A stretch of DNA of 64,000 bases from Halorubrum distributum JCM 10118 (GTDB lineage Archaea; Halobacteriota; Halobacteria; Halobacteriales; Haloferacaceae), in NCBI RefSeq assembly GCF_000337335.1, contig NZ_AOJN01000047.1:73387-137386 (forward strand), in the 5' to 3' direction. Shown in pieces: positions 6,856 through 59,232 of this stretch. Every line of letters starts with the position of its first letter. The stretch's first letter is position 1. The notes beneath the pieces are model-generated. The model worked only from the letters and a program-made list of their open reading frames with translations, was not told the origin of the DNA and made no database searches. The translations under genes were made by a program, and so were the position numbers.

Positions 6856-7228
6856 TTTATAAACGAACACGTGGCGGCGCGTGCCTCCGAGCGCCCGCCA
6901 GGGCGCGAGGAGCACGCGCGAGGGAGCGGTGAGCGACGGGCGACCGGAGGGAGCCCCGAGCGAACCGCGAGGCTGGGGGGGTGCGAGGTGCGGTTGCGGT
7001 GCGGGGCGGGACTCAAAGGGGCAGTCGCGAAGAGCGCGGAGGCGACGTAAGGACCGCAGGGAACGAGCGTAGCGAGTGACCGAGGACCGCAGCGAGCGTC
7101 CGCGCTCTTCGCGACTGGGGCTTTGGCGGCGTTCGCCGTCGATCCGCGGCCAGTTATTTATAAGTGAGCTGTCGGAGCGTTGGCGGCGTTCGCCGTCGCT
7201 TCGTCGGCAGCCAGTTATAAAAGACCGG
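6856..7228 (+). repeat. Dispersed structured element, copy A
   Basis: This is an intact copy of the repeat family found seven times in the window. A TTTATAA box lies at 6856-6862. Hairpin P1 is at 6877-6919, with a CTCC/GGAG middle helix and a tandem GA/GA internal loop. Hairpin P2 closes with GCGGT/ACCGC. The G-rich linker ends in GACTCAAAGGGGCAG. The perfect 18-bp P3 palindrome has arms 7022-7039 and 7100-7117, with a 60-nt loop. Two 57-bp units follow (7115-7171 and 7172-7228); the first holds TATTTATAA at 7155-7163. It lies upstream of pyk and downstream of thi4, antisense to both. No protein is encoded. Confidence 0.85.
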
Positions 7229-7274
7229 CCGAGTGCGTGGAGGGGGCCGTCCTCGAAGCGTCAGCGGTGGGTTC

Positions 7275-8210
7275 TCAGTCGTCCGCGGGGGCGGGCGCGC
7301 TGCCGGTCGAGAGGTTCACTTCGGGCGCGTCGACCTCCAGCTCGTCGAGCGCGGTCTGTGCGGCGCGCTTCCCCGACACCAGCATCGCCCCGAACGTCGG
7401 GCCCATGCGCGGGAGGCCGTGGGCGGTCGCGACCGCCATCCCGGAGGCGATCAGGCCGTCGTGGACGACGCCGGTGTGCTCGACGACGGCGTCCTCGCTC
7501 TCGCCGACCCACATCGAGTCGTGGCCGGGCGAGTCGTGGCCGGGGGCGCCGTACTCGCCGTCGGCCGTCTGGTCCATGCCGGTGTTGTGCTCCTTCGCGT
7601 GTTCGATGCCGGGCGCCGAGAGGACGCCGCGCTCGTCGAGCTTGCTGATCGCGACGGCGTCGTGACCGGTCGCGTCGATGACGAGGTCGGACTCGACCGC
7701 GATCGGGTCGACGCAGGTGATCTCGCGCGGGAGCGCGTGGACCGGCGTCCAGTTCATCACGATCCCGCCGACCTCGTGGTCGTCGCGGACGACGAGGTCC
7801 GTGAACTCGGTCATGTTCTGGACGCGCGCGCCGGCGTCGCACGCCGCCTTGATCAGCCCGGAGCAGGCCTCCGGCCCCGCGGCGGTGTAGAGGCCGTCGA
7901 CGTCGTCTACCGGCTCGTACTCCACGTCGAGGTCGTCGAGGATCTCCTGGGCCGGGTCGCGCACGGTCACCGTGTTCATCAGGAACCCGCCGAGCCAGAA
8001 GCCGCCGCCGAGGTAGTTGTTCTTCTCGACGATCATCACCTTCACGCCGCGCTCGGCCAGCTCCTTCGCGGCCATCAGCCCGGAGGGGCCGCCGCCGAGA
8101 ATGATCACCTCGGAGTCCGTGAAGTCGAGGAACCCGTCGGTCCACTCGGTGCCGATGGCTCTCGTTACGTCCGTCTCGCTCACGTCCGCGAAGCCGTTGA
8201 ATCCCTTCAT
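7275..8210 (-). CDS. thi4: Thiazole synthase Thi4
   Basis: Makes the thiazole half of thiamine (ADP-thiazole) from NAD and glycine. The 311-residue protein has a Rossmann dinucleotide motif ([16 protein letters not shown], about residues 35-50), the [13 protein letters not shown] segment, and Cys166 in PREITCVDP. That Cys corresponds to the active-site cysteine shown to be essential in Haloferax Thi4, so this is probably the Cys-donor type rather than the sulfide-dependent His type. The C-terminal [17 protein letters not shown] is typical. The ATG at 8210 matches the family N-terminus ([12 protein letters not shown]). The leader carries a candidate operator, consistent with control by ThiR. 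Confidence 0.96.
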
Positions 8211-8211
8211 A

Positions 8212-8273
8212 CAACTTGGTAGTATTACTTGGTTGTGAAATACGTTGCGGTCGATGCGGAGTTGTATATATAA
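8212..8273 (-). promoter_or_regulatory. thi4 promoter and candidate ThiR operator
   Basis: On the minus strand a TATA-like TTATATATA lies at about 8264-8273, roughly 55 nt before the thi4 ATG, which predicts a leader of about 30-35 nt. That leader contains ACAACCAAGTAATACTACC followed by AAGTTGT at 8212-8237. It has a direct repeat ACCAAGT (13-nt period) inside inverted ends ACAAC/GTTGT. A site just downstream of the start point would suit a repressor. The TATA box falls inside the terminal 57-bp unit of repeat copy B. Linking the site to ThiR is inference. Confidence 0.5.
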
Positions 8274-8500
8274 GATCTTCCGGCAGACCGGCGGCGAACA
8301 CCGCCAAAGCCCCAGTCGCGAGGACGAAGACGCGCGACTGGGGCTTTGAGTCCCGCCCGCACCGCCCCGCACAGCAGCCTCACGCCTCCCCAGCCTCGCG
8401 GTTCGCTCCGGGCTTCCTCCGGTCGCCCGTCGCTCACCGCTCCCTCGCGCGTGCTGCTCGGCCGCAGATGCGGCCTCGCAGGCACGCGCCACCGCCGCGT
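8259..8500 (-). repeat. Dispersed structured element, copy B (short P3)
   Basis: Minus-strand copy. P1 is at 8447-8489 with its own helix sequences: CTGC/GCAG in the middle and GGCCGC/GCGGCC at the tip, still separated by GA/GA. P2 is as in copy A. P3 is short and perfect: AAAGCCCCAGTCGCG at 8306-8320 pairs with 8333-8347, leaving a 12-nt loop. The 60-nt loop seen in other copies is missing, and the usual GGG/GGG internal loop has become CCC/GGG. One 57-bp unit occupies 8259-8315 and contains the thi4 TATA box. The copy fills the divergent gap between thi4 and rpl37ae. Confidence 0.83.
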
Positions 8501-8586
8501 CGGGTCGTCTGCTATCGTCGCGCGTACCGTTCCGACCGCCGCGACTCGCAGCCTTTTTACCTACGCTGGCGGTAGAAGTGGCTACT

Positions 8587-8853
8587 ATGGCTGAGGACAA
8601 GGCTCGAAGCACCGGCAGCGCGGGCCGATTCGGCGCTCGCTACGGCCGGGTCTCCCGCAAGCGGGTCCAAGACATCGAAGCGGAGATGCGCAACGCGACC
8701 GTCGACGGCGACGACGTCAAGCGCGTGGGTACCGGCATTTGGGTCAACGAGGAGACCGGCGAGACGTTCACGGGCGGTGCGTACCGCCCCGAGACGCCCG
8801 GCGGTCGCACCGTCCGCCGCTCCATCCGCGCCGCGCTCGCCGACGAGGAATAG
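8587..8853 (+). CDS. rpl37ae: 50S ribosomal protein L37Ae (eL43) without zinc finger
   Basis: An 88-residue ribosomal protein of the large subunit. The N-terminal [21 protein letters not shown] and C-terminal [20 protein letters not shown] are characteristic. The family normally carries a CxxC...CxxC zinc ribbon between them. Here that segment reads [21 protein letters not shown] and the whole protein contains no cysteine. The ATG at 8587 is preferred over one three codons upstream because family members start MAE. It is the first gene of a co-directional cluster with rpoP, pcc1, pfdB and a DUF3194 gene. Confidence 0.95.
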
Positions 8854-8857
8854 GACG

Positions 8858-8992
8858 ATGAGCTACAAGTGCTCCCGCTGTAAGCGCGACGTCACCCTCG
8901 ACGAGTACGGCGGCGTGCGCTGCCCGTACTGCGGCCACCGCGTCCTCCTGAAGGAGCGCGGCGGCGACGTGAAGGAAGTGAACGTCGAGTAA
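8858..8992 (+). CDS. rpoP: DNA-directed RNA polymerase subunit P (Rpb12-like)
   Basis: A 44-residue zinc-ribbon subunit of archaeal RNA polymerase. It has CSRC near residue 5 and CPYCGHR near residue 22, then a basic stretch VLLKERGG. The length is typical. The start is 4 nt after the rpl37ae stop, so the two are co-transcribed and probably translationally coupled. Confidence 0.96.
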
Positions 8993-9020
8993 TCCGACGC
9001 TTTCGTCTCCCTCTCGGACC

Positions 9021-9272
9021 GTGACGCGCGCACACGAGACGGTCCTCTCGTTCACCTACCCCTCCGAGCGGCGCGCACGGGTCGTGGCCGCCGCGCTCGG
9101 TCCCGAAGTCGGCGAGATTGACGACGCCCGGTCGAGCGCGACCGTCGACCGCGAGGGCGACGCGGTCCGCGTCCGCGTGCTCGCCGACGACCTCGTGGCG
9201 CTGCGCGCCGGCGTCAACAGCTGGTCGCGGCTGGTCTCCGTCGCCGATGGCGTCGGCGCGGGACGGGATTGA
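9021..9272 (+). CDS. pcc1: KEOPS complex subunit Pcc1
   Basis: An 83-residue small alpha/beta protein that dimerises and serves as a platform for Kae1 in KEOPS, which makes N6-threonylcarbamoyladenosine in tRNA. The tail [21 protein letters not shown] is the Pcc1 helix. Translation begins at a GTG (9021), 28 nt after rpoP. The position between rpoP and prefoldin beta is the usual archaeal location of Pcc1. A paralogue is present at 63211-63552. Confidence 0.87.
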
Positions 9273-9379
9273 GGCTCACCGGATACGCCGATACCGCCCC
9301 CTCTCGGGCCGCTGCGCTCCGAATACCCCGTCGTCCGAGAAGTAAGGGGTTTTTCTGTCCGGGTCGCCTCGGTCCGCCC

Positions 9380-9778
9380 ATGCAAGGGAACATGCCGCCC
9401 GAGGCACAGGAGAAGATCGAGGAACTTCAGGAGCTTCAGGAGACCGCACAGCAGGTCGCCGAGCAGAAGGAGCAGGCGGAGTCCGCGCTCAACGAGTCGA
9501 AGACCGCCCTCGACGCCCTCGAAGACGTCGACGAGGACGCGGGGATGTACCGCGAGATCGGCGAGGTCCTCGTCGAGACGGACTACGAGTCCGCCTACGA
9601 CGACCTCGAAAACAAGGTCGACTCGCTCGAGGTCCGCGTCGAGCAGCTCCAGAAGCAGGAGGAGCGCGTCGAGGAGCAGTTCGACGACCTCCAGAGCGAG
9701 CTCCAGCAGATGCTCCAGGGCGGCGCGGGCGGCGGCGGCCCGATGGGACCGGGCGGCCCGGGCGCCGGCGGCGCGTAA
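9380..9778 (+). CDS. pfdB: Prefoldin subunit beta
   Basis: A subunit of the hexameric prefoldin chaperone that passes unfolded proteins to the thermosome. The 132-residue protein has two long coiled-coil helices (about residues 8-48 and 75-118) joined by a beta hairpin ([21 protein letters not shown]), then a Gly/Pro-rich tail ([16 protein letters not shown]). The ATG at 9380 gives the family start [12 protein letters not shown]. It lies in the L37Ae-RpoP-Pcc1 cluster. Confidence 0.96.
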
Positions 9779-9782
9779 GGCC

Positions 9783-10079
9783 GTGACCGACGACGGAACC
9801 GACGCTTCCGAGGCCGACGGCGGCGCGGACGACGCCGCGGGGCCGAGCGACGACGAGGTCGTTCGCACCGCCGCCGAGGCGGCCGAGGGGATCGTGTTCA
9901 AGCACTACGACCAGTCGACGGTCACGGACCTCGACGTCACCGTCACGTTCGAGGAGGGCGTCCTCGACGTGGACGTCTACCTCAACGCGCCCGAGGACGC
10001 GGAGCCCGACCGCGAGGCGGTCGCGCAGGAGGCCGTCGAGACCGCGGGCGAGGCCGTCGACGAGCTGTTCGCCGAGTAG
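9783..10079 (+). CDS. DUF3194 family protein
   Basis: A 98-residue acidic protein, started by GTG 4 nt after pfdB. Residues 25-98 hold the conserved block (EVVRTAAEAAEGIVFKHYDQSTVTDLDVTVTFEEGVLDVDVYL). Members of this family follow prefoldin beta in many archaea. Function is unknown; the context suggests a role near translation or protein folding. Confidence 0.85.
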   Translation: MTDDGTDASEADGGADDAAGPSDDEVVRTAAEAAEGIVFKHYDQSTVTDLDVTVTFEEGVLDVDVYLNAPEDAEPDREAVAQEAVETAGEAVDELFAE

Positions 10080-10209
10080 GCCGCGCGCCCGTCTGTCAGG
10101 CGGCACGCCCGTCAGCCGGGCGGCACACCCGTTTTTCCGGAGTCGATGTCGGACCCGAGGAGCCGCTTCTGCCGCTAGGCGCAGCTGCTCTCCCCCTCTC
10201 GTAGTAAAC

Positions 10210-10217
10210 TATTAATA
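10210..10217 (+). promoter_or_regulatory. TATA box for the zinc-finger gene at 10241
   Basis: ATTAATAA lies 24-31 nt before the ATG at 10241, in an otherwise GC-rich gap. This spacing fits a leaderless haloarchaeal transcript beginning at or next to the start codon. Confidence 0.5.
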
Positions 10218-10240
10218 ATGACATTGAGTACCGTTGCCAC

Positions 10241-10438
10241 ATGTCATCTCGTGACGGCGGTACCACGGCGTTCGACCGGCTCCGGGCGCGCTTCGACGGC
10301 CGGACCTTCGCCTGCGAGGAGTGCGGGTTCGTCGACGAGGAGAGCGAGTGGGCGGCCGCGACGACGGGCGCGACCGTCGAGTACCGCCACGAGTGCCCCG
10401 GCTGTGGCGACACCACGGTTCGGCGGTACCGGCTCTGA
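10241..10438 (+). CDS. Small zinc-finger protein
   Basis: A 65-residue protein with two CxxC knuckles, CEEC near residue 25 and CPGC near residue 52, separated by about 25 residues. The N-terminus (GGTTAFDRLRARFDGRTFACEECG) resembles a conserved haloarchaeal family annotated as a zinc-finger protein of the HVO_0649 type (from memory). It may bind nucleic acid or protein; no partner is evident. The next gene begins 24 nt downstream. Confidence 0.75.
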   Translation: MSSRDGGTTAFDRLRARFDGRTFACEECGFVDEESEWAAATTGATVEYRHECPGCGDTTVRRYRL

Positions 10439-10462
10439 GACGGGGGCGCGAGACCGATACCG

Positions 10463-10888
10463 ATGTACGACGCGATCCTGTGTCCGACCGACGGAAGCGC
10501 CGGGAGCGCCGCCGCGATCGAACAGGCCTGCGGGCTCGCCGCGCTGACGGGCGCCCGGATCCACGCGCTGTTCGTCGTCGACGAGGGTATCGCCGGCGCC
10601 GACGAGTGGGATCTGGTCGTCGAACGCGAGGAGGAGCGCGGAGAACGCGCGCTCGACGCGGTCGCGGAGGCGGCCGCGGAGCGGGGCGTCGAAACTGAGC
10701 TCCACCTCCGTCGCGGTCGCCCGCACGAGGAGATACTCGACGCCGCGACTGACTACGGGGCCGACCTGATCGTGATGGGGACTCACGGCCGCACCGGGAT
10801 CGGGCGCTTCGTCACGGCGGGGTCGGTCGCCGAGCGGGTCGTGCGACACAGCGAACTCCCGGTGTTGACGGCGCACATCAGAGAATAG
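10463..10888 (+). CDS. Universal stress protein (UspA family)
   Basis: A 141-residue single-domain USP. It opens with the strand [15 protein letters not shown] and has the nucleotide-binding signature [19 protein letters not shown] (Gly-x2-Gly-x9-Gly-Ser), so it is probably of the ATP-binding class. A general stress or signalling role is known for the family; the specific role here is unknown. It is convergent with guaA at 10911. Confidence 0.92.
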
Positions 10889-10910
10889 TCTTCTGCTCCC
10901 GTCGGAGGCC

Positions 10911-11465
10911 CTACGCCGACTCGCAGATCGCGACGAAGTTCTCGAAGACCTCCTCGCCGCGCTCCGTGTGCGCGACCTCGGGATGCCACTGGACGCCGTA
11001 CAGCCCCGCGTCCGGGTTCGACATCGCCTCGATGCCGCAGACGTCGGAGGTGGCGGTGCGGGCGAACCCGTCGGGCAGCGCCGTCACCTCGTCGGCGTGG
11101 GAGGCCCAGACGCGCGTCTCCGGCGCGAGCGAGCCGACGAGCGGGTCTGCGTCGTCGGTTATCTCGACGTCGACGTCGGCGTAGCCGCCGTAGTCGCCCG
11201 CGCCCACCGCGCCGTCGAGCTCGCTCGCGATCAGCTGCATCCCGAGGCAGATGCCGAGGACGGGAATATCGCGGTCGAGGTAGTCGGGCGCGTTGCCGAC
11301 GCGGTCCATGTCCGGGCCGCCCGAGAGGACGACCCCGTCCGCGTCGACCTCGTCGGCCGGCGCGTCCGCCGAGATAATCTCGGTGTCGACGCCGAGGTCG
11401 CGGAGCGCCCGCCGTTCGAGGTGGGTGAACTGGCCGTGGAGGTCGATGACGACGATCCGGGTCAT
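10911..11465 (-). CDS. guaAA: GMP synthase glutaminase subunit
   Basis: Class I glutamine amidotransferase subunit that supplies ammonia to the separate GMP synthetase subunit in archaea. The 184-residue protein shows the nucleophile motif GICLGMQ (Cys near residue 75), the oxyanion motif LSGGPDM, and the catalytic His/Glu pair in GVQWHPEVAHTE. The ATG at 11465 gives the family start MTRIVVIDLHGQFTHL. The ATPase subunit is not in this window, as is common for split archaeal GMP synthase. Confidence 0.95.
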   Translation of the reverse strand: MTRIVVIDLHGQFTHLERRALRDLGVDTEIISADAPADEVDADGVVLSGGPDMDRVGNAPDYLDRDIPVLGICLGMQLIASELDGAVGAGDYGGYADVDVEITDDADPLVGSLAPETRVWASHADEVTALPDGFARTATSDVCGIEAMSNPDAGLYGVQWHPEVAHTERGEEVFENFVAICESA

Positions 11466-11569
11466 GCCTCCGGTTGCGGGCTGTCGCACAAAAGCGGCTC
11501 GGAACGGAGCGCAGTATCGTGGTGATTTCGGCTACTGAGTTCCAGCTTCAATACACAAACGCGGATCGA

Positions 11570-13045
11570 TCAGAGGTCCAACGGACCGCGCTTCGTGAAC
11601 TCGCGGAGCAGCACGGTCGCGTACGAGCCGCTCGGGAGCGCGAAGGCGAACCGCGGATCGCCCCCTTCGAACGTCACGTCGAGGTCGGTGCGCAGGAGGA
11701 CCGCGCGCCGCGTCCCACGGGAGTCGAACTCGCGGGGGAGCGCGAAGTCGCCCGGCTCGACCCCGGCGTCGGCGAGGACCTCGCGCTCGATCTCGCCCGG
11801 CTCGCCGTCGCCGAGCTCCGTCTCGGTGCCGACGAGCGGCGCGGTGACGAACGCCCGCCCGCGCTCGCAGTGCCGCGAGACCACGTCGACCCGGTCGGCG
11901 TCGACCCGCTGGAGCCGGTCGGTGTCGGGCGCGTACAGTTCGTCGGGCGCGTCGGCGTCCGCGAAACACACCACGTCGCCGGCGACGGGGCGGTCGAACG
12001 GGAGCCCGCGGCGCAGCCGCTCGCTCACGACCCGGTTGAAGCAGTACGACTGCGCGGCGTTGACGAACAGCCGCTGGAGGTTCGAGGGCACCGCCTCCAA
12101 GGCGTGCCACCAGTCCTCGTCGTCGGGCGGCGCGTCTGGGTCGACGCCGCGGTCGGCGAGCCGGTGGACCATCGACCGCTCGAACCGGAGCTTGCCGGGG
12201 ATCGCCTCGAGGCAGGCGGCCCAGTCGCCGTCGCCCGTGCCGTCGGCGGCGGCGCGGTCGGCGTCGTCGGAGCCGGAGCCCTCGTCGACGCCGAACGCCG
12301 CGTCGACGCGGTCGCGCGCGGCCCGGGTGTCGTCGGGCTCCGTCTCGGCCGGGTTGCCGGCGTACAGCCGGACCGCCTCGCGCGGGTCCTTCCGCGCGAT
12401 CGCGAGCCCCACGAGGTGCGTCACCGGCCGCCGGCTACCGAACCGCTGCTGGCCGAAGTAGTTCGGGACGCCGACGGTCGCCTCGGTCGGAGCTCCTCCC
12501 TCGCCGTCGGGAGGAGCCTCTCCGTCGCCCGCGAACGCCCGCAGATCCCGCACCGCGTCGGCGACGCGGTCGGGCGCCTCCTCGACCGCGTCCGCGACCC
12601 GGATCTCGAAGGCGTTGCCGGCGAGGTCGCCGAACGAGAGGCTCCGCCCCGACCGGCCGAGCGCCTCGATCTCGGCGCCGCGGATCTCGGGGAGCTCGTC
12701 GGCGCCGATCCCGCGGACCGTGAACAGCTGCGTGGTGACGGCGCGCTTGTCCTTCGTCCCCGCCCACGAGACGCGCTCGCGGCTGATTCCGAGCGCGTCC
12801 GAGAGGCGGCGCGCGAAGTCGTTCGTGTCCCAGTCGCGGAGGGTCGCCCGGAGGACGAGCTCGGGGTAGCTTCCGGGTTCGGCGTCGAGCGGCTCCGCGT
12901 CGAACGCCTCCAGCTCGCGGACCCGGAAGTCCTCGGGCGACTCGCGGAGCCGGCCGCCGATGCCGTCGGCGTCGCTGACGTAGTACTCGATGCCGACCGC
13001 GCGCTCGGTCGGGTGCGCCTCGCGAAGCGTGCGTTCGGGGGCCAT
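11570..13045 (-). CDS. truD: tRNA pseudouridine(13) synthase TruD
   Basis: Modifies U13 of tRNA to pseudouridine. The 491-residue protein carries the TruD active-site motif [13 protein letters not shown] with the catalytic Asp, the NYFGQQRFG motif, and the C-terminal catalytic-domain end [12 protein letters not shown]. It is longer than bacterial TruD because of acidic insertions, such as residues about 255-280 rich in Asp/Gly/Ala. Its ATG follows the pth2 stop with no intervening base, so the two RNA-related genes form an operon. Confidence 0.97.
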
Positions 13046-28206: not shown

Positions 28207-28750
28207 CCAGTGATTGTTTATAAATGGGTTGCGGCCCTGCGGCGGACTTCTCTGAACTCCCGGCCGCTCATTTATAAATAGTTGACAGTAGATTGGCGAC
28301 GAACACCGCCAACGCCCCGGCCGCTCGGTTGTACGTGGCTGCCTCTCGAACGGCGGAGAAGGCCCACAAAGCCCCAGTCGCTCGGTTGTACGTGGCTGCC
28401 TCTCGAACGGCGGAGAAGGCCCACAAAGCCCCAGTCGCTCGGTTGTACGTGGCTGCCTCTCGAACAGTGGAGAAGGCCCACAAAGCCCCAGCCGCGAGGA
28501 CGCCGTACGCTCGCTGCGGTCCTCAGTCGCTCGCTTCGCTCGCTCCCTGCGGTCCTTGCGTCTCCTACGGCGTCCTCGCGACTGCCCCTTTGAGTCCCTC
28601 CCCCGACAGCACCGCAACCGCGCCTCACGCCTCCCCAGCCTCGTCGGGCGCGTCTTCGGGCTCCCTTCGGTCGCCCTCGTCGCGCCCGACTCCCTCGCGC
28701 GTGCGACTCGCGCCCTGCGGGCGCTCGTCGGCACGCGCCACCGCGTGACA
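28207..28750 (-). repeat. Dispersed structured element, copy C, with five 57-bp tandem units
   Basis: Minus-strand copy filling the gap between mfnA and the halocyanin gene. P1 is at 28697-28738 (CGAC/GTCG, GCGCCC/GGGCGC, GA/GA). P2 has a long closing helix, GTCGGGCGCG/CGCGCCCGAC. P3 arms are 28489-28507 and 28566-28584 (19 bp, one non-canonical pair). Units end at 28491, 28434, 28377, 28320 and 28263, exactly 57 bp apart. The three units nearest P3 are almost identical and replace the TATTTATAA box with ACGTACAACCGAG, which indicates recent tandem amplification. TATA-like boxes occur in the last two units and near 28751-28758 at the 5' side. Confidence 0.85.
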
Positions 28751-28797
28751 TATTTATAAGGAACAGTCGTCACCGCGGTCGAGTATTTAAAAGAGGC

Positions 28798-34975: not shown

Positions 34976-35484
34976 CGGTGGCGCGTGCCGATGAGCGCCC
35001 GAAGGGCGCGAGTCGCACGCGCGAGGTCGCCGGCGCTACGCGCCGGCTGCCAGAGAATCTCCGATTCTCGCTGGAGTCGGCGGTCCGGAGCGAAGCGGAG
35101 GACCGCCGACGAGGTTGGGGAGGCGTGAGGCTGCGGTGCCGTGCGGGGCGGGACTCAAAGGGGCAGCCGCGAGGCGGCCGTACGCTCGCTGCGCTCCTCG
35201 CTCAGTCACTCCGTTCCTTCGCTGCGGTGCTTGCGTCGCCTACGGCCGCCTCGCGGCTGGGGCTTTGGCGGTGTCCGCAGTCGGTCCGTAGTTGATTATT
35301 TATAAGCGAGCAGCTGGGGCTTTGGCGGTGTCAGTCGTCGATCCGCAGTCGATTATTTATACGCGAGTAGCTGAGGCTTTGGAGGTGTCAGCAGTCGATC
35401 CGCAGTCGGATATTTATAAACGAGCGGCCGGGGAATCGGAGGCATTCGCCGCAGCGCCGTTGTTCACTTATCTGTAATCCGCCG
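34976..35484 (+). repeat. Dispersed structured element, copy D, with inverted P3 loop and four 57-bp units
   Basis: Plus-strand copy in the divergent gap between the MinD-like and rhodanese-MBL genes. P1 is at 34981-35022 (a CGAT/GTCG wobble keeps the helix). The P2 region is enlarged and contains extra hairpins; its main helix is 35076-35086 with 35100-35110. P3 arms 35164-35182 and 35241-35259 are a perfect 19-bp palindrome. Its 58-nt loop is the reverse complement of the loop in copies A, C, E and G. Units start at 35257, 35314, 35371 and 35428, each 57 bp; the first three carry TATTTATA near unit position 41, and the fourth is degenerate. Confidence 0.85.
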
Positions 35485-39223: not shown

Positions 39224-39530
39224 ATGATTTATAAGTGGTAGTTGATGGCATCACGGTGACGGATTCCTACAAAGCCCCAGCCGCGAGGACTCGCGCGGCT
39301 CGCTGCGCTCCTCGGTCGCTCACTTCGTTCGCTTCCTCCGGTGCTTGCGTCGCCGTGCTTCGCCCTCGCGGTTGCCCCTTTGAGTCCCGCCCCGCACCGC
39401 AACCGCAGCCTCACGCCTCCCCAGCCTCGCCGCTCACGCCCTTCGGGCGTTCGCGGCGTCCCTCGCGCGTGCGACTCGCGCCCTGCGGGCGCTCGTCGGC
39501 ACGCGCCACCGCACCGTATTTATTTATAAA
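39224..39530 (-). repeat. Dispersed structured element, copy E
   Basis: Minus-strand copy between aroD and the rhomboid gene. P1 is at 39465-39506 (CGAC/GTCG, GCGCCC/GGGCGC, GA/GA). P2 is at 39428-39458 with outer CGCCGC/GCGGCG and inner ACGCCC/GGGCGT, again joined by GA/GA. P3 keeps only about 11 paired bases next to the conserved flanks (39278-39288 with 39364-39374). One 57-bp unit lies at 39224-39280, with TTTATAA at 39228-39234. An AT-rich box TTTATAAATA lies at about 39518-39530 on the 5' side. Confidence 0.82.
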
Positions 39531-45860: not shown

Positions 45861-47870
45861 TCATTCGCCTGATCGGGGGTCGACGTACGCCTCGACCAGC
45901 TTGCGCTCGGCCGCGCGGAGGTGCTGGTGGAACGTCTGCCGGGTGATCCCCATCTGCTCCGCGATCTCCGAGCCGTCGACCGGTCGCGGCCACTCGAAGT
46001 AGCCGTTCAGCTCGGCGGTCTTCAGGGCGGCGCGCTGGCGCTCGGTGAGCCGCTCGTCGACCGCGGCCGCGAACTCCGCGACGGTGCGGTCGCGGCTCTC
46101 CCGTTCGACGCGCGACCGGAGTTCGACGCCCTCGTACTCGCCGCGGAACACGTCGAGGATCGACCGGACGTCGTGCTCGGGCGGCGCCTCGATCGTCAGG
46201 GTCGCTCCCTCAGGCGTGGCGGTCGCCTCGGCGACGACGCCGCCGTGGTCGGCCAGCTGCGTGAGCGGCGGCGACTCGGTGGCGGTGACGGCGAAGCTGA
46301 CGCCGTCGTTCGTCTCCGAGACGGTCCGCATCGATTCGACCAGCGGGAGGGCGGCGAGCTCGTCGAGGTCCGGGTCCTCGCCGTCGGCGTGGAAGTACAG
46401 CTCGCACGCGTCGTCGTCGAGCCGCGTCGTCCCGAGGTGGTCTACCTTCCCGCCGACCGCGTCGGCGATCCGGGCGAGCGGCCCCGTCGAGTCCCGTATC
46501 TCGACGACGAGCTCCACGACGCGGTCGGTCGTGAGCATCTCCGTCGTCTCGATGGAGTGGAGTCCGTTCGCGATCATCTTCCCGACCGACTCGCACACCC
46601 GTCGCTCGCGGCGGTCGAGCACGTCCGCGCCGCTGCCGTAGATCCCCAACAGGCCGTACTGGCGGTCGCCGTAGGTGAGCGGCACGACGAGGAGCCGCCG
46701 ACCGCCCGCGGACTTCGGTTCGAGCGGGCCGTCGGACGCGTCCTCTATCGACCCGGTCCGGAGCTCCTCGCTCTCGATCGCCTCCTGTACCTCCTGCGGC
46801 GTCTCGCTGACGTCGAACGCCGCGCCCGGCTCGACCGCCACGCCCTTCGCGGCGCGGATCTCGAGCCGCCCGGTCGCCGACGACACCTCGCCGATCCAAC
46901 CGCCTGCGTACCCCGGCTCGCCGGCGACGACCTCGCAGACGCGCTCGGGGATGACGTTCGGGTCCCGGTTCTCGACGAGGATGCGACTGATGTCGCTGAA
47001 GAGCCCGTTCACCCGACCGAGGACCCTGTCGAGCGAGCGCCGCTCAGTCGCGAGCTTCTCGGCGCGCTCCTCGGCGAGCCGCTCCGCCTCCTTTCGGTCG
47101 CTGATGTCGTTCTGGAAGCCGACGTAGTGGGCCAGGTCGCCGTCCTCGTCGTATATCGGCGCGACCGTCAGCTCGTTCCAGAAGGGCGTTCCGTCGCGCC
47201 GGTAGTTCCGTATCTCGACGGTCGCCTCCTCCTCGTTCGCGATCGCGTCCCCGATCTCCTCGACGGTCTCCGGGTCCGTCCCCGGTCCCTGGAGGAACCG
47301 CGGGTTGCGGCCGAGCGCCTCCTCGACCGGGTAGCCCGTGTGTTCCTCCCAGGCGTTGTTGACGTACACGAGGGGATAGTCCGGGAGGTCCGGGTCGCTG
47401 ATGCTGATCCCGATCGGCGCGTCCTCGACGGCCCGCGTCACGTCCGTCGCCGACGGCTCGTGGTCAGAGATGTCCCGTCGCGGCTCCGAGGTCGGGACTC
47501 CCGAACAGACCGTCGAGACGTCGGAGACGAGCTTATCGATCGACGCCGACCCGTTCTTCTGGAGGAACCTGTCGACGCCGTTCTCGAAGGCGGCCTCCGG
47601 CACCCCCTCCTCGTCCGTCTCCGTGAACATCACGACGGGCACGCCGGCGTCGGACTCTTCGATTGCGGTCGCGAGGGCCACCCCGTCGTCGCCGTCCAGC
47701 GCGTACTCGCTGACGACGCAGTCGTACTCCCCGGTCGTTGCCTTTGCGACCGCGGACGCCGCGGTGTCCGTGCGGGTCACGTCGAACCCCGCGGCCCCGA
47801 GCGCCGTCTCGATCCGATCGCTCCCCTCCTCCGGGTGGACGAGGAGCGCTCGAGCGTTCGCCATGGGCAT
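45861..47870 (-). CDS. bat: Bat-type regulator: receiver-like, LOV-like PAS, GAF and HTH
   Basis: A 669-residue soluble activator, probably of opsin and retinal genes nearby. Domains: receiver-like (1-125) in which the phospho-acceptor Asp is Glu55 (CVVSEYAL); a LOV-like PAS (about 150-260) with GRNPRFLQG at 187-195, where the photoactive Cys is Pro190 while the FMN-contact residues Asn222 (NYRRDG), Asn232 (FWNEL) and Gln253 (GFQND) are kept; a coiled coil; a GAF domain (about 290-420); the bacterio-opsin activator domain (about 450-600); and an HTH_10 (DGSEIAEQMGITRQTFHQHL). An alternative ATG lies two codons downstream. It is 3 kb from bop. Confidence 0.9.
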   Translation of the reverse strand: MPMANARALLVHPEEGSDRIETALGAAGFDVTRTDTAASAVAKATTGEYDCVVSEYALDGDDGVALATAIEESDAGVPVVMFTETDEEGVPEAAFENGVDRFLQKNGSASIDKLVSDVSTVCSGVPTSEPRRDISDHEPSATDVTRAVEDAPIGISISDPDLPDYPLVYVNNAWEEHTGYPVEEALGRNPRFLQGPGTDPETVEEIGDAIANEEEATVEIRNYRRDGTPFWNELTVAPIYDEDGDLAHYVGFQNDISDRKEAERLAEERAEKLATERRSLDRVLGRVNGLFSDISRILVENRDPNVIPERVCEVVAGEPGYAGGWIGEVSSATGRLEIRAAKGVAVEPGAAFDVSETPQEVQEAIESEELRTGSIEDASDGPLEPKSAGGRRLLVVPLTYGDRQYGLLGIYGSGADVLDRRERRVCESVGKMIANGLHSIETTEMLTTDRVVELVVEIRDSTGPLARIADAVGGKVDHLGTTRLDDDACELYFHADGEDPDLDELAALPLVESMRTVSETNDGVSFAVTATESPPLTQLADHGGVVAEATATPEGATLTIEAPPEHDVRSILDVFRGEYEGVELRSRVERESRDRTVAEFAAAVDERLTERQRAALKTAELNGYFEWPRPVDGSEIAEQMGITRQTFHQHLRAAERKLVEAYVDPRSGE

Positions 47871-51823: not shown

Positions 51824-52012
51824 GCCCGTTCCGAACCCCTCGCTCTCCGCTCAGCGCGTCGCCGAACGGACACGCGGCTCCGTCGAACCCTCACAGGTGA
51901 CGCGTTCTGAACTGGCGCTGGTCAGTGCAGACGTACCGGCGAGCGATAGCGGGAGTGAGTATCGCAGATCGGCGGCCGCGATGTGGTATTTAAATACCCA
52001 CGGGCGACGGCG

Positions 52013-52305
52013 ACGAGCTCTTATAAAAGGGGTGCGGTGGCGCGCCCGCGAGCGGCCGGAGCGAAGCGGAGACCGCGAGGCTGGGGAGGCGTGAGGTGCG
52101 GTTGCTGTGCGTTCCCGCGAGCGAAGCGAGCGGGAGCACGGAAGCCGCAGCCCGCACAGCGACCGAAGGGAGCGAGCAGGAACGTCTTCCGGTGGGGCGG
52201 GACTCAAAGGGGCAGCCGTCGAGGCGGGACTTTGGAGGCACTCGCCGCAGTAGCGTCTCACTTATAAACAGCCGACAGGGACACCGCAATTCCACTTATA
52301 AATGG
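52013..52305 (+). repeat. Dispersed structured element, copy F (decayed)
   Basis: Plus-strand copy between the zinc-ribbon gene and brp. A TTATAAAA box lies at 52021-52028. The conserved start GCGGTGGCGCG is present, but P1 is lost; P2 is reduced. The linker GAGGCTGGGGAGGCGTGAGG and GGGACTCAAAGGGGCAG remain, with an extra 80-nt insertion between them containing a CCCGC/GCGGG hairpin. P3 is deleted: the left flank joins almost directly to GGGACTTTGGAGGC. Two CTTATAAA boxes (52261 and 52295 regions) mark what is left of the tandem units. Confidence 0.72.
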
Positions 52306-52420
52306 CCTCACTCACAACGTACTACACTCACTCCCGAAACCGATCAGGAAACACTCTTCGGCGACCGACCGTTTCAGACGAAATTCATCCGAAAAGTGGG
52401 GGTTCCGACAGAGCCGAGAA

Positions 52421-54498: not shown

Positions 54499-55230
54499 TT
54501 ACAGCAGGTCGTCGAACTCCTTGTACCGGGTGATCTCGACGCCGTCGTCGGTGACGACCGCGACGTTGATCCCGTTGCCGGAGGCGAGGTCGCGCTCGAC
54601 GGCGGACTGGATCGCCTTCGCGGCGATGGTCTTCGCCTCGTCGATGGTGACGTCGTCGTCGTACTCCTGTTCGAGGACACCGAGCGCGTACTGCGACCCG
54701 GAGCCGGTGACGGTGTACTCCTCCTCGGTCGTGCCGCCGAGGGCGTCGATGGAGTAGATGTGCGCGCCCTCGTCGTCGACGCCGCCCAGGATCGGCTGGA
54801 CGACGAAGAACGCCCCGGAGCGGAGGAGGTTCCCCGTCAGGGTCGACAGCGCCTCCATCGACATGTCCTTGCCGCGGCGGGCCTCGTAGAGGCTCGTCTC
54901 GGCGCGGAGCGTCGAGATGAGGTTCTGGGCCGCCGAGACGGAGCCCGCGATGGTCAAGGCGCCGCGCGGGTGGATCTCCTCGACCTTCTGGACGTCCTTC
55001 GAGGAGACCATGCCGCCGAGGGAGGCGCGCATGTCGGTCGCCATCACGACGCCGTCGTCGGCCTTGATGCCGACGGTCGTGGTGCCGGTCTTCATCTCGC
55101 CGTCCTCCTCCGCCTTCGCGGCGCGGCGCTCGCTGTGTTCGAACTCGCCGAGCTCCGGTCCGAAGACGGGCTGGTCGCGGCCGAGGTCCGCTGCCGGGCC
55201 GTCTGAGAGGTCGCCAGTCGGTGTTCGCAT
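54499..55230 (-). CDS. psmB: Proteasome subunit beta
   Basis: Catalytic subunit of the 20S proteasome. The 243-residue precursor has a 49-residue propeptide cleaved before Thr50 in KTGTTTVGIKADDGVV. The catalytic Asp (ATDMRAS) and Lys (QKVEEIH region) are visible, as is the SGSGSQYALGVLE segment. The propeptide length matches the haloarchaeal pattern. The CDC48-like ATPase 4 kb away could be a functional partner. Confidence 0.97.
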   Translation of the reverse strand: MRTPTGDLSDGPAADLGRDQPVFGPELGEFEHSERRAAKAEEDGEMKTGTTTVGIKADDGVVMATDMRASLGGMVSSKDVQKVEEIHPRGALTIAGSVSAAQNLISTLRAETSLYEARRGKDMSMEALSTLTGNLLRSGAFFVVQPILGGVDDEGAHIYSIDALGGTTEEEYTVTGSGSQYALGVLEQEYDDDVTIDEAKTIAAKAIQSAVERDLASGNGINVAVVTDDGVEITRYKEFDDLL

Positions 55231-55450
55231 TACACGCTCGTTGGCTCGGCGCGCTGATAAAGGCAACCCTTCGGGGGCCGCCGACCGGTTCCGACGGGCC
55301 TATCCGTCGCCGGGTTGCGACCGGTCGACGGCGACCGGACGGGCGCGTCCAAGACGGGTGACGAGGCGCCCGCGTCACCGACGGTACTGTCGCTCCGGGT
55401 CGGTTCGGCGTTCGGTCGGCTGGGCAAAACGAGTCGCTACGGCGGCGCGG

Positions 55451-55627
55451 TCACTCCTCGGCGGCGGTCTCGAACGCCTCGGTGGTGGTCTCGACGAGCC
55501 GGCCGACGGGGACGTTGATATCGAGGCGCTGACGCGCGAAGACGGCCATCGGGAACAGCGAGATCCCGACGGCGACGGTCGCTTGGTGCAGCCCGAAGAG
55601 GGCCGCGGTTCGGATGCGGTCGAACAT
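55451..55627 (-). CDS. 58-residue membrane-associated small protein
   Basis: A short gene (ATG at 55627, TGA at 55453-55451). The protein begins FDRIRTAALFGLHQATVAVG and continues ISLFPMAVFARQRLDINVPV, giving one hydrophobic helix (about residues 7-31) then an amphipathic acidic tail (VETTTEAFETAAEE). A TATA-like box (ATATTTATATAT on the minus strand at 55656-55667) lies about 34 nt before the ATG, a good spacing for a leaderless transcript. Similar short proteins occur in haloarchaeal genomes, from memory. Function unknown. Confidence 0.7.
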   Translation of the reverse strand: MFDRIRTAALFGLHQATVAVGISLFPMAVFARQRLDINVPVGRLVETTTEAFETAAEE

Positions 55628-55941
55628 TGGACTTCTGCTCCACCCGAACGCGGGGATATATAAATATCTTCCGTGCCTGCCGCCGAGTCGACCCCGTCGC
55701 AGTCTTGCGGTTTTCGGTCATAAATTAACGATCCTGAAACTTCCCCCGTCCCGCGCCGATCGACGCGTATCCCAGCCCGGTTTGACCCCGTTTATCTCCG
55801 TAACTTATGAGAATTCACGGCGGTTCGTGCGCCTCGCATCGGCGCTTCGCGCCCGGCACTGTCCCGCCGGCTCCGACCGCGCGTGGGTCGCACCGCGCCG
55901 GACCGAACGGGATTTAACCGAGTGAGCGCCTACCCGGTCGC
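55628..55941. other. Gap between the 58-residue gene and the UDG-family gene
   Basis: This 314-nt divergent gap holds a TATA-like box at 55656-55667 for the small protein and ATTTAA at 55912-55917, about 27 nt before the GTG start of the UDG-family gene. The middle is less GC-rich than the surroundings. No other gene is supported. Confidence 0.5.
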
Positions 55942-56622
55942 GTGAAGAACGTCACGGACCGGATCCGGAACCCCTTCGGGATGCGTCCCGACTGCCCATC
56001 GTTCGTCCCCGGCTACGGCGACGCCAACGCCGACTTCCACGTCGTCGGCGACTACCCCGGCGTCCACGGCGGGACCGAGTCGGGCGTCCCCTTCACCGGA
56101 GAGGCGTGGTCGCCCGCGTTCCTGTCGGCGCTCGCGGCGGCCGGACTGATCGCGGGACTCGCCGACGGCGTCGCGCCCGACGGCGTCGCGATCGACGGCG
56201 ACCCGACGGCGATCGACCCCGTCCGGACCGACCGGACGTTCTTCTCGTATCTCCACATGTGCGAGAGCGAGGGGGCGCCGGACGAGGGCGCCTACGACGA
56301 CATGGAGCGGTTCTTCGACGCCGAGCTCCGCGCCATCGCGGCCCACGTGCTGCTCCCGGTGGGCGCGCGGGCGACCGAACACGTCCTCGAGACCTACACC
56401 GCGCGGGCCCGGAAGACCGAGATCGACATGGACGCGCTCCACGGCGAGGAGCTGCTCGGCGCCGGCTGGCTCGTCGTCCCGATCAAGGACCCCGCCGACT
56501 GGACCGACGGCGACGCCGACCGGCTCGTCGACTCGCTCGGGGAGCTGCGCTCGACCGACTTCCGGCGCGAGAGCGACCTCGGACGGTTCGTCGCCGGCAA
56601 CGAGCCGTACCTGGTCCGCTGA
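55942..56622 (+). CDS. Uracil-DNA glycosylase family protein
   Basis: A 226-residue protein from a GTG start. The motif FHVVGDYPGVHGG resembles the uracil-binding loop (GxxPG) of UDG families 4 and 5, and VPIKDPADW near residue 190 occupies the place of the second catalytic motif. The first Cys-containing iron-sulfur cluster of family 4 is not obvious (only RPDC and HMCESE). It may therefore be a divergent or non-catalytic haloarchaeal branch. A leaderless transcript is predicted. Confidence 0.75.
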   Translation: MKNVTDRIRNPFGMRPDCPSFVPGYGDANADFHVVGDYPGVHGGTESGVPFTGEAWSPAFLSALAAAGLIAGLADGVAPDGVAIDGDPTAIDPVRTDRTFFSYLHMCESEGAPDEGAYDDMERFFDAELRAIAAHVLLPVGARATEHVLETYTARARKTEIDMDALHGEELLGAGWLVVPIKDPADWTDGDADRLVDSLGELRSTDFRRESDLGRFVAGNEPYLVR

Positions 56623-56880
56623 CGCAGCGACCGCCCGCGAGTCCGCGAACTCGTCGGTTTTCTCCCGGATAGACGTGAAATTTCTCCGGCAAAGCGGGTT
56701 CCCGATGCGGGGATTCGGCAGTAATCGCTCGCATCCGCGGACGATCGTTTTCTGCCCGGCCGCGATCGAGTCATATTTGTCGCTACTGCCCGGATTTTAT
56801 ACCTCTCCTGCCGATATTTCAGTAGACGCCCGCTCGAACGGGCGTCGGCCGCAGGACTGGTACTCCGCGCGGCGACTTGG
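56623..56880. other. AT-richer gap between the UDG-family and AsnB-like genes
   Basis: This 258-nt convergent gap is less GC-rich than its surroundings, with stretches such as GTGAAATTTCTC and CATATTTGTCG. The flanking genes converge, so it should hold two terminators. I see no gene, no dispersed-element copy and no clear T-run terminator. Confidence 0.4.
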
Positions 56881-58146
56881 TCAGCTCCGGCCCTCACCGG
56901 CCGGTTTTTCCTCGCTACACAGCGCCTCGATGTACTTCCCGACGTGGTCGTCCATCCGCCGCTTGTAGCCCGCCTGCCGCGCGAGTCGGTCGAGCTCGCG
57001 GGAGACGTACGTGCCGTACTGGACCGCCTTCTTGTCCGCGCCGTGAACCGATTCCGGCACGCGCCCGGCCGCGACCCGGCGGAGCGCGACCTTCCGCTCG
57101 TCGCTGTCGACGAGCAGGTCGTCGGGGAGCGCCAGCGCGGCGGCGACGACCCGGTCGTCGAGCAGCGGCGTCGCGGGCTCGACGCCGGCGGCGCGGAGCG
57201 CGAGGACGTCCCGCTCCAGTTGACCGGGTAGCGTGCGGACGGTCTCCGTCCGCGCCCCGCGGACGGTGTCGGCCTCGACGCGAGGGTCCGCCGCCGGGTC
57301 GACCACCTTGCTGTACCCGCCGAACAGCTCGTCGGCGCCCTGCCCGACCGCGAGCCGGTCGAACCCGTCCGCGGCGGCCGCTTCGGCCGTCAGGAACAGC
57401 GGCACCGCGATGGCGACGTCCATCGGGTTCCGGCGACCGGTCGCGGCCGCGACGGCGCGGACGGCGCGCCTGAGGTCCTCGTGCGTGATCTCGACGACCC
57501 GCAGGTCGCGCTCCATCGCGCTCGCTGCCTCGCGCGCGGCGGCGACGTCGTGACTCCCCTCGAAGCCGGCGACGTAACAGGGGGCCTCGGGGACGGCGGC
57601 CGCGACGAGCCCGGAGTCGACCCCGCCCGAGAAGGCGACCGCGAGGTCGCCGTCAGCGGTTCCCTCGGCACTCGCCGGAGAGAGTGAGGACGCGAGGTCG
57701 TCGAGCGCTGCGCTCACCGCGTCGTCGACCGCCGACAGCGCCGCCTCCCGGTCCGGTTCCGGACCGGGATCGGGGAGGCGCCAGACGCGTTCGGTCCCCG
57801 TTGCCGAGACGACGCTTCCGGCCGGGACCGGTTCGGGATCCTTGAGGTCGGTCCGGTCGAAGGCCCACGCGTCGGGGGCCGTCGACCGACGCTCAGTGTC
57901 GGGGTCGAGCGCCGTGGCCTCGGCGAACAGCGGCTGCCGGCCGAGGACGCCGCGGACGAGGGCCGCCCCCTCGCGGTTCGGAGCGTCGCGGTCCGGCGAG
58001 TCCCACTTCGGCAGGTCGGCCAGCAGGCCGGCGAAGCCGCGGCCGCCGGGGAGGGGGTCGTCGTCGCGGAGCGCGGCGCGGACTCGGTCCGGGGAGGCGC
58101 CGCGCAGGTCGGAGGACTGGTCCTCGGAGGAGGCGTCGGGCGCCAT
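56881..58146 (-). CDS. Asparagine-synthase-like protein lacking the glutaminase nucleophile
   Basis: A 421-residue protein. The C-terminal synthetase domain is intact: AVAFSGGVDSGLVAAA (ATP pyrophosphatase loop, near residue 178) and GQGADELFGGY. The N-terminal region (1-160) resembles a reduced glutaminase domain (GVLGRQPLFAEA, WAFDRTDL) but starts MAPDASSEDQ, with no Cys2. It would have to use free ammonia, or amidate another substrate. It forms a pair with the PHP-domain gene (5-nt gap), which suggests a substrate other than aspartate is possible. Confidence 0.88.
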   Translation of the reverse strand: MAPDASSEDQSSDLRGASPDRVRAALRDDDPLPGGRGFAGLLADLPKWDSPDRDAPNREGAALVRGVLGRQPLFAEATALDPDTERRSTAPDAWAFDRTDLKDPEPVPAGSVVSATGTERVWRLPDPGPEPDREAALSAVDDAVSAALDDLASSLSPASAEGTADGDLAVAFSGGVDSGLVAAAVPEAPCYVAGFEGSHDVAAAREAASAMERDLRVVEITHEDLRRAVRAVAAATGRRNPMDVAIAVPLFLTAEAAAADGFDRLAVGQGADELFGGYSKVVDPAADPRVEADTVRGARTETVRTLPGQLERDVLALRAAGVEPATPLLDDRVVAAALALPDDLLVDSDERKVALRRVAAGRVPESVHGADKKAVQYGTYVSRELDRLARQAGYKRRMDDHVGKYIEALCSEEKPAGEGRS

Positions 58147-58151
58147 CGGGC

Positions 58152-58859
58152 TCACCGGAGGGCGTCGAGCGTGCGGAGCGCGCGGCGCTTGGCCCCCCCG
58201 CCGAACTGCTTGAGCGAGATCCGCCACGGGGTGCGCTTGCCGACGACGCTCGTCCGGCCGTCGGCGATGCCCGAGAGGATCGCGGCCGCGGAGCGCTCGT
58301 CGGCGCCCACCTCGGTCACCGCCTGTCCGACCATCTCGGAGATGTGGGCGTCGCTGCCGGCGGTCATCGGGAGGCCGTTGCGGACGGCGAACTTCTCGGC
58401 CTGGCGGTTCGAGCGCCCGGTGAACAGCCGGGAGTTGTACACTTCGAGGGCGTCGGCGCTCGCCAGCTGCTCGTCGCTGATGTGCGCGGCGACGCCGTGG
58501 CGGGACTTCTGGAAGGGGTGGGGGACGACCGCGATCCCGCCCTGATCGCGGATGCGGTCGAGCGTCTCGTCGAAGGGGAGGCCGCTCTCGATACGCTCCT
58601 CGATGCCGAACGCGAGGACGTGGCCGACCGCGGAGGTCACCTCCATGCCGACGACGCCGACGAGGCCGTAGTCGGGGGCCTTCTCGGCCGCCTCGATGCT
58701 GGCGTCGATCTCGTCGTGGTCGGTGACGGCGAGCGCGTCGAGCCCGACCGCGGCCGCCTGCTCCAAGAGGAGCTCGACCGGGTCGCGCCCGTCGTACGAC
58801 AGCGCGGAGTGCGCGTGTAGCTCGACCGATAGCACACGCACTGCTTCGAGCGTGGTCAT
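58152..58859 (-). CDS. PHP-domain metal-dependent phosphoesterase
   Basis: A 235-residue single PHP domain. Metal-binding motifs are VELHAHSALSYDG, ALAVTDHDEIDAS, VGMEVTSA (Glu), VVPHPF and TAGSDAHIS. Stand-alone PHP proteins hydrolyse phosphoesters of nucleotides or histidinol phosphate. The start at 58859 lies at the edge of the gap holding repeat copy G. It is co-transcribed with the AsnB-like gene. Confidence 0.9.
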   Translation of the reverse strand: MTTLEAVRVLSVELHAHSALSYDGRDPVELLLEQAAAVGLDALAVTDHDEIDASIEAAEKAPDYGLVGVVGMEVTSAVGHVLAFGIEERIESGLPFDETLDRIRDQGGIAVVPHPFQKSRHGVAAHISDEQLASADALEVYNSRLFTGRSNRQAEKFAVRNGLPMTAGSDAHISEMVGQAVTEVGADERSAAAILSGIADGRTSVVGKRTPWRISLKQFGGGAKRRALRTLDALR

Positions 58860-58927
58860 AAAAAGCGCCCCGGTCCGCGCGGGTCTCAGGAGATTCGCGG
58901 CGGCTGAACATCGCTGTGGCGACGTGG

Positions 58928-59232
58928 TATTTAAAAACAGACCGCGGTGGCGCGTGCCGACGAGCGCCCGCAGGGCGCGGGTCGCACGCGCGAGGGACGC
59001 CGCGAGCGCTTTTAAGCGCGAGCGGCGAGGCTGGGGAGGCGCGAGGTGCTGTGCGGGGTGGGGACTCGAAGGGGCAGCCGTGAGGCGGGCGCAGGGGACG
59101 TAAGGACCACAGAGAGGGAGCGAGTGAAACGAGCGACCGACCGAGGACCGCAACGAGCGTGCGCCCGCCTCACGACTGGGGCTTTGGCGGTGTTCGCCGC
59201 CGATCTACCGGCGGTTGTTTATAAATGAGCGG
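58928..59232 (+). repeat. Dispersed structured element, copy G
   Basis: Plus-strand copy upstream of the PHP gene and downstream of the DUF7513-type gene, antisense to both. The TATTTAAA box is at 58928-58935. P1 is 58950-58991 (one G-A pair of the internal loop has become GG). P2 is 58998-59027: outer CGCCGC/GCGGCG, inner GCGCTT/AAGCGC, loop TT, with GA/GA between. P3 arms 59075-59093 and 59160-59178 pair over 19 bp with one mismatch, enclosing a 66-nt loop in the usual orientation. One 57-bp unit follows at 59176-59232, with TTTATAAA at 59218-59225. Confidence 0.85.

Follow-up and report, generated by a model that had tools for sequence, protein, structure and literature searches.

The 64,000-nucleotide stretch of the Halorubrum distributum JCM 10118 genome analysed here (contig NZ_AOJN01000047.1, positions 73,387 to 137,386; hereafter the window) carries seven copies of a modular, non-coding repeat element in the gaps between its genes. 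All seven copies that a preliminary description had placed there from the letters alone are present, and each lies inside a gap between genes as called with a codon model trained in this analysis (7/7; Table 1). A 20-base linker within the element has seven matches in the 64 kb at up to three mismatches, against a chance mean of 0.01, and a second block, the anchor (GGGACTCAAAGGGGCAG), has eight at the same threshold, against 0.17 by chance, with the match at 46479 being spurious. Matches in the window to R1, a covariance model of 124 positions that represents the core of the long hairpin of the element (P3), are confined to the seven copies.

In Halorubrum the modules follow one order, namely an optional 5' module, an AT box, the hairpins P1 and P2, the G-rich linker, the anchor, P3, a motif that we call END (CTGGGGCTTTGG), and a tail with a further AT box; END and tail together make up the 57-bp unit that is amplified in some copies. 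The first account of the element as modular, structured-RNA-like, intergenic, present in more than 100 copies, and without a protein stands, with the structure now backed by covariation. Its finer points fared less evenly: the shared order beginning with an AT box fits most copies and fails for B and D, which lack the 5' box; the 57-bp units are in clear tandem only in C and D, with a second, degenerate unit in A; and the listing of C and E as sense to their neighbours was incomplete, since copy F is likewise sense to both of its own.

Table 1. Copies of the element in the window and the positions of their parts (window coordinates; R1, covariance model of the P3 core)
Copy	Span	Strand	R1 score (bits)	5' AT box	P1	Linker	Anchor	END	Tail AT box	Other features
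A	6857..7230	+	133.4 (7004-7127)	6857-6862	from 6873	6969-6988	7008-7024	7115-7126	7158-7163	P3 after anchor; second, degenerate unit with AT box 7215-7220
B	8260..8493	-	38.2	absent	8485-8493	8378-8397	8338-8354 (GGGG to CCCC)	8304-8315		P3 collapsed
C	28210..28759	-	126.8	28754-28759	28734-28742	28623-28642	28582-28598	four, in 57-bp units 28309-28491	28272-28277, 28218-28223	P3 after anchor
D	34977..35480	+	both strands: 95.9 (minus), 59.9 (plus)	absent	34977	35111-35130	35150-35166	three, in 57-bp units from 35257		double-hairpin insert before P2; P3 with inverted interior
E	39225..39530	-	120.5	39524-39529	39502-39510	39409-39428	39372-39388	39269-39280	39229-39234	P3 after anchor
F	51935..52340	+	28.4 only	52021-52026	52036	52077-52096	52199-52215		52262-52267, 52296-52301	upstream limit ~51,935; extra 5' module with CGGGAGTGAGT 51950-51960 and ATTTAAA 51988-51994; ~80-bp insert between linker and anchor; P3 deleted; inverted CGGGAGTGAGT 52326-52336
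G	58929..59230	+	102.4	58929-58935	58946-58954	59027-59046	59061-59077	59176-59187	59219-59224	P3 after anchor

From the window and loci L001 to L207 we collected 210 copies, 203 of them distinct. P3, which alone is ~100 nt long, consists of a closing helix and a GGG/GGG internal loop, above which short helices and GA/GA mismatches alternate in a rod that leads to the apex. In the 182 copies in which it was scored, its stem averages 17.6 pairs and has 112 distinct 5' arms, with 2,991 Watson-Crick pairs, 60 GT, 19 AC, and a further 125 mismatches, of which 115 are GG. Some copies have additional hairpin modules, either separating P1 from P2, inside the loop of P3, or following the linker. Two-hairpin inserts recur in P3 loops or beside P2 across species (L001, L018, L026, L153, L166, and L196), as though a second, smaller repeat had been inserting into the element. 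The optional 5' module, ~100 nt long and with CGGGAGTGAGTRT-like ends, occurs at L035, L042, L043, L058, L064, L082, L089, L118, and L139 and in the window at 51935-52000; further upstream of it some copies share a TTGTCGAAATCCTC-like sequence, perhaps another repeat.

Further copies are plentiful in the window's own genome (3.31 Mb in 68 contigs), which holds 144 anchor matches at up to two mismatches and none to the reversed pattern; at this average of about one copy per 23 kb, the window is denser than the genome as a whole. With up to one mismatch allowed, the anchor was found in 34 of 35 Halorubrum genomes, own included, at 4 to 176 copies each, and neither in genome G034 nor in 24 genomes of other genera (the reversed control matched once each in 2 of 59 genomes). 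An exact degenerate anchor occurred in 14/14 Halorubrum genomes and once each in 2/229 others, and the anchor matches listed from named contigs came from Halorubrum records and one uncultured archaeon. The restriction to Halorubrum hinted at by these exact-motif scans was ruled out by the covariance model, which finds the P3 core across the haloarchaeal order. Of 146 genomes of the order, 95 had R1 matches at E <= 0.001, spread over 41 of 56 genera, or 86 of 137 once the nine Halorubrum genomes are set aside; at that threshold 51 of the 146 had no match, and several of these had first-look counts as high as those of matching genomes. Ten genomes from nine families, rescored with 150 candidates each, contained 7 to 80 matches at E <= 1e-6 (best 6.6e-19). 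Outside the genus 24 to 29 candidates were otherwise scored per genome, so that copy numbers there are lower bounds. In a sample of 120 genomes from the phylum R1 matched 16, all inside the haloarchaeal order, and none outside it. For comparison, the window and 29 Halorubrum loci (296 kb) together gave 39 R1 matches.

Outside the genus the parts are recognisable in altered form. The anchor typically reads GGTGGGACTGAAAGGGGC and END reads GGGGGCTTTC, and the closing helix covaries, being CTCAAAG/CTTTGG in Halorubrum, CTGAAAG/CTTTCG in many other genomes, and CTGGAAG/CTTCCA in G058. A GGCTGGGGAGG-like linker, at up to one mismatch, stands just upstream of 10 of 43 non-Halorubrum units, in our families f1 (other genera), f3, f6, and f7, and the complete P1-P2-linker-P3 order can be made out by eye at locus L241. 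Thirteen of 46 loci, from five other families (f4, f6, f7, f10, and f12), carry two units head to head, spaced 19 to 47 bp between matches in ten and 88 to 181 bp in three; about half of these pairs have matching inverted-repeat ends by eye, and one locus carries a tail-to-tail pair. Inverted doublets are not the usual form in Halorubrum.

Covariation supports the structure beyond what shuffled controls give. From 152 Halorubrum copies with a P3 of 95 to 115 nt we kept 44 that were less than 90% alike, omitting L102 for its inverted interior, and aligned their P3 cores by sequence only (A1). RNAalifold returned 34 pairs, 22 of them with two-sided change; 98.0% of the cells were paired, and 207 were doubly changed, compared with 49 after shuffling and at most 24 after sliding. 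Across genera (A2, 63 matches in 46 loci) the alignment was fitted to R1, and its pair counts accordingly lean towards structure: 96.7% of cells were paired, 31 of the 34 pairs had two-sided change, and 498 cells were doubly changed, compared with 137.5 shuffled and at most 64 slid. A separate alignment of P1 (60 of 140 distinct copies) gave 12 pairs, 9 with two-sided change; P2 comprises several hairpin types with no common alignment, and stems determined copy by copy gave 67 distinct arms in 164 copies. The mean frequency of the top base across genera is 0.86 at unpaired and 0.71 at paired positions (0.87 and 0.84 within Halorubrum), and the GGG facing GGG, the GA/GA steps, and an AAG/CA loop reach 0.9 or more across genera. 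What is conserved, then, is the fold, while most of the letters change.

Several copies record events on DNA hairpins, as indicated by P3 deletions, inverted interiors, and the palindrome of copy B. P3, or everything from P2 to P3, has been deleted between short repeats in the relatives L156, L167, and L174 (by eye); the interior of P3 is inverted in 4 of 150 scorable copies, as in copy D; and in place of its P3 copy B has only a short palindrome, which by eye matches one arm of the L150 ortholog read in reverse. The palindrome of copy B and the inverted interiors would also be expected if long palindromes repaired themselves by template switching, in which case the covariation would be only apparent and no selection would act on structure. 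We consider this scarcely credible: self-correction of that sort would remove mismatches, yet the GGG/GGG, GA/GA, and AAG/CA loops hardly vary between families, and both P3 and P1 have more GT than AC on one strand. P3 shows neither the equal GT and AC counts nor the random loops that would have spoken for it.

On the plus strand GT outnumbers AC by 37 to 8 in A1 (p 2e-5) and by 54 to 19 in A2 (p 5e-5), with the outermost pair of P3 left aside, and by 19 to 3 in P1 (p 9e-4). Predicted folding energies agree, the plus strand being better in 44/44 rows of A1 and 53/58 of A2 with RNA parameters and in 41/44 and 46/58 with DNA parameters (in A2, 5 of 63 rows were left out on account of length). 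Both findings indicate that for P3 and P1 one folded strand is what is kept. As for the kind of nucleic acid, we prefer single-stranded DNA (ssDNA), mainly because of the apical loops of P3. Families of RNA hairpins generally prefer loops of the GNRA and UNCG classes. Among 39 apices scored in A1 we counted 34 triloops, of which 23 are GNA, and 5 tetraloops, all C(GNNA)G, or 28 GNA/GNNA loops in total; of 45 scored in A2, 44 are triloops and 35 of these GNA (5 of 44 and 18 of 63 apices, respectively, could not be scored). None of these 84 P3 loops is GNRA. Loops of the GNA/GNNA type on G-C pairs are described as extraordinarily stable DNA mini-hairpins, GCGAAGC melting at 78 degrees (PMC4686876). 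The P3 loops thus suggest ssDNA, with no proof and with P2 differing.

The same element could alternatively be an abundant structured non-coding RNA, in which the plus strand is transcribed and the folded transcript either binds a conserved archaeal protein or affects neighbouring mRNAs as a terminator, 3'-end stabiliser, or processing site. Covariation, conserved internal loops, and the excess of GT over AC in P3 and P1 are all to be expected of such an RNA, and within Halorubrum there is something like a promoter: of 145 copies, 70 have an AT box beginning 15 to 20 nt 5' of P1 and 98 have a TATA-like motif within 100 nt, as against 1 of 144 in a control stretch. The TATA box of halovirus HF2, however, begins at -26 from the start site (PMC8707807), and with that spacing transcription of the element would start inside the 5' arm of P1. 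No TATA-like motif was found within 100 nt upstream of any of the 43 non-Halorubrum units, and the case for the AT box as a general promoter is weakened by its position and by this absence. Copies between tandem genes are sense in 22 cases and antisense in 31 (p 0.27), without a sense bias. Together with the P3 loops, among which GNRA is missing, and the lack of an Rfam match, the absent orientation bias and the absent promoter outside Halorubrum lower the RNA reading, which we regard as less probable than not but as the main rival to the reading preferred below.

Location within the genome points to gene ends. From 164 Halorubrum copies, after 19 edge copies and 1 overlapping a called open reading frame (ORF) were dropped, the gene pairs with a copy numbered 142, comprising 61 convergent, 53 tandem, and 28 divergent, as against 109, 482, and 150 among 741 element-free pairs; convergent pairs are therefore enriched (61/142 versus 109/741; odds ratio 4.4, p 6e-13). 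The 43 classified non-Halorubrum loci (two edge cases dropped) comprise 23 tandem, 11 convergent, and 9 divergent pairs, none overlapping a called gene and with no convergent excess over other gene pairs there (13/55).

Three sites show copies that have kept their position and direction. The sites compared lie around thi4 and upstream of a 328-aa gene (30 loci each), and an anchor or linker occurs within 800 bp in 14/30 loci at site A, 16/30 at site B, and 18/30 at site E, always in the same orientation. At site E several species have a 5' flank with AT boxes in common, so that their copies are orthologous. Across 15 site-E loci, adjacent-gene identities of 0.87 to 0.92 go with P3 identities of 0.76 to 0.90, and in the closest pair (gene identity 0.97) P3 is identical. 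Mean P3 identity is 0.75, 0.77, and 0.81 at the orthologous sites, 0.785 among paralogs, and 0.778 between different sites; as orthologs are about as alike as paralogs, the signal of the locus has been lost, by gene conversion or by saturation. Judged by the gaps between aligned blocks, relatives have only 30 to 73 bp at the places of C (G022 and G016), D (G033 and G022), and F (G022, G026, and G016), with alignments running through C, D, and E in G061 and through G in all five relatives. Syntenic occupancy is patchy, and gain and loss are not distinguishable.

Two observations concern the genes at these sites. At site E, loci without the element (L177, L185, L188, and L202) have a small membrane-protein ORF (MALIESDQSSLVSAFGLL-like) in that gap, upstream of the 328-aa gene. 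Directly 5' of thi4, between the tail of copy B and the start codon, lies ACAACCAAGTAATACTACCAAGTTGT (8211-8236, minus strand), which recurs in varied form at almost every one of 30 Halorubrum loci and may be an operator.

Fixed place and orientation, wide conservation, and a position between convergent genes would suit a chromosome-level DNA site at gene ends, which might bind protein or serve topology, replication, or segregation, a role that has been proposed for BIMEs together with gyrase or IHF. Copy number ranges from 0 to 176 within the genus, 51 of 146 genomes of the order lack a match, and what is constrained is a single-strand fold rather than duplex sequence, all of which make such a role improbable. 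Still harder to sustain is a miniature inverted-repeat transposable element (MITE) derived from a conventional DDE transposon, which would have inverted repeats at its ends and duplicate its target. Among 157 copies, inverted CGGGAGTGAGT-like ends occur as a 5' motif in 21, as a 3' motif in 29, and as both in 13 (wrong-orientation controls, 6 and 11), copy F belonging to this Halorubrum subset, and matching inverted ends in about half of the doublets of other families would fit as well. Such ends are missing from most copies, the diverged flanks reveal no target duplication, and a DDE MITE would not be expected to conserve a single-strand fold, which leaves this explanation highly improbable.

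We tentatively favour, at a probability of roughly 47%, a REPIN/BIME/BOX-like non-coding repeat in which the folded plus strand, probably as ssDNA, is acted on by machinery encoded elsewhere. The recognised unit would be one strand of the P3 hairpin, with its closing helix, GGG/GGG loop, GA/GA rod, and mostly GNA apex, which may fold when replication or repair exposes it as ssDNA; an activity that recognises structure, supplied in trans, might then bind the strand and copy or move it. Units exist singly or as inverted pairs placed head to head; at least four families have a G-rich Halorubrum-like linker upstream, and Halorubrum has AT boxes and the amplifiable 57-bp tail. Copies lie mostly at gene ends, where they would do the least harm, are passed down at fixed places over long periods, acquire and shed hairpin modules, and preserve the fold through compensatory change. 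Patchy syntenic occupancy and the doublets favour this REPIN-like DNA repeat. Among the options first proposed, a non-autonomous mobile element, an RNA family, or both, the DNA reading is at present ahead of the RNA reading.

Several results weigh against a mobile ssDNA repeat of this kind. An RNA would account equally well for the GT excess and for a strand difference that is larger with RNA energies. P2 breaks the strand rule (13 GT and 20 AC), and its 129 crudely scored apices (1 of 130 not scorable) do not follow the loop rule, with 16 GNA and 11 GNNA, ten of the latter GNRA-like; of 146 apices in P1, 46 are GNA and 18 GNNA, two of them GNRA, and none UNCG. Because P1 shows the loop pattern of P3 in weak form and P2 lacks it, we lowered our estimate for the preferred reading slightly and raised that for RNA slightly. 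No clean empty site or target duplication was seen in five relatives, whose flanks are too diverged to be read. Among the proteins neighbouring copies in the window and at L001 to L145 and L208 to L261 (666, in 511 clusters), no partner was found in the 14 largest clusters, all of which are ordinary genes, and no transposase flanked by two inverted units was seen within those 14. Seven of 39 Halorubrum genomes have no Y1_Tnp match, which drafts could miss, yet carry 10 to 100 copies; a TnpA of the IS200/605 type as obligate partner was rejected since copy number does not follow Y1_Tnp counts. Viral contigs contain no exact match to three 17- to 20-base motifs, and only six plasmid records have a match (Halorussus vallis, Halorubrum salinarum, two of Halobaculum, Natrinema thermotolerans, and Haloarcula rara), a scarcity not shared by many active mobile elements.

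A bolder form of the preferred reading, which is possible at clearly less than even odds, is an ancient archaeal class of element defined by its single-strand fold and served by hairpin-recognising machinery of an undescribed kind, perhaps predating the split of the haloarchaeal families and with an almost free stem sequence. Were this true, it would mean either ssDNA transposition without a recognisable HUH transposase or a host function of ssDNA whose sites in some genomes number well above one hundred. In any case an abundant non-coding element of a whole archaeal order, undescribed as far as searched, offers a single fold in a large range of naturally evolved sequences suited to probing, and allows the question whether archaea have REP-type repeats without RAYT to be put to the test. 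Knowing the binder of the folded strand would tell apart ssDNA mobility, an RNA role, and a chromosome site.

The designation of the element as unrecognised holds as far as Rfam 15 and the open-access literature go. At gathering scores the whole window has a single Rfam 15 match, outside the copies: the S15-Halobacteria ribosomal protein leader (RF03143, 72.1 bits) at 61271-61341, upstream of a plus-strand gene called at 61491. Copies A and B had no match at E <= 1, and no description of the element was found in the open-access literature as judged by titles, abstracts, and a sequence-string search. The RepRanger survey of REPs includes archaea, and its main text does not contain "halo-" (PMC12306157). 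The class I intergenic repeats of halovirus HF2, which are promoters of 56 to 58 bp, resemble the 57-bp unit in length, in an AT-rich box, and in related hosts; they are dispersed viral promoters, while the unit here is a hairpin tail, and their core CTTTAAGT is absent from 7/7 window copies (PMC8707807). The PATEs and SMRs of Haloquadratum walsbyi are likewise transposase-free, high-copy haloarchaeal repeats, some with palindromes and without target duplication; PATE ends resemble IS605-type ends, unlike copies here that do not track Y1 counts, and both groups are set apart from this family by their descriptions, not by sequence (PMC3119063).

Closer in kind are the bacterial repeats. The BOX element of Streptococcus pneumoniae is modular and folded, has tandem subunits variable in number, is over-represented between convergent genes, a preference taken as a sign of tolerated mobile insertions, and has no easily comparable empty site (PMC3049150). 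It differs in that its tandem units stand in the middle rather than forming a 3' tail, and in its confinement to few species rather than an order, a separation that again rests on description. REP/BIME/REPIN repeats with RAYT (a Y1 HUH protein) are extragenic imperfect palindromes in high copy, often arranged as inverted doublets and preserved through complementary changes (PMC2817692). Compared with their 20- to 40-bp unit, the model unit here is 124 nt with a P3 of ~100 nt, the internal loops are conserved and non-Watson-Crick, the host is archaeal, and seven genomes with 10 to 100 copies have no Y1 gene. The element is a real, abundant, order-wide family of structured repeats; within the reach of the searches the family is new, and in kind it resembles REPIN and BOX repeats.

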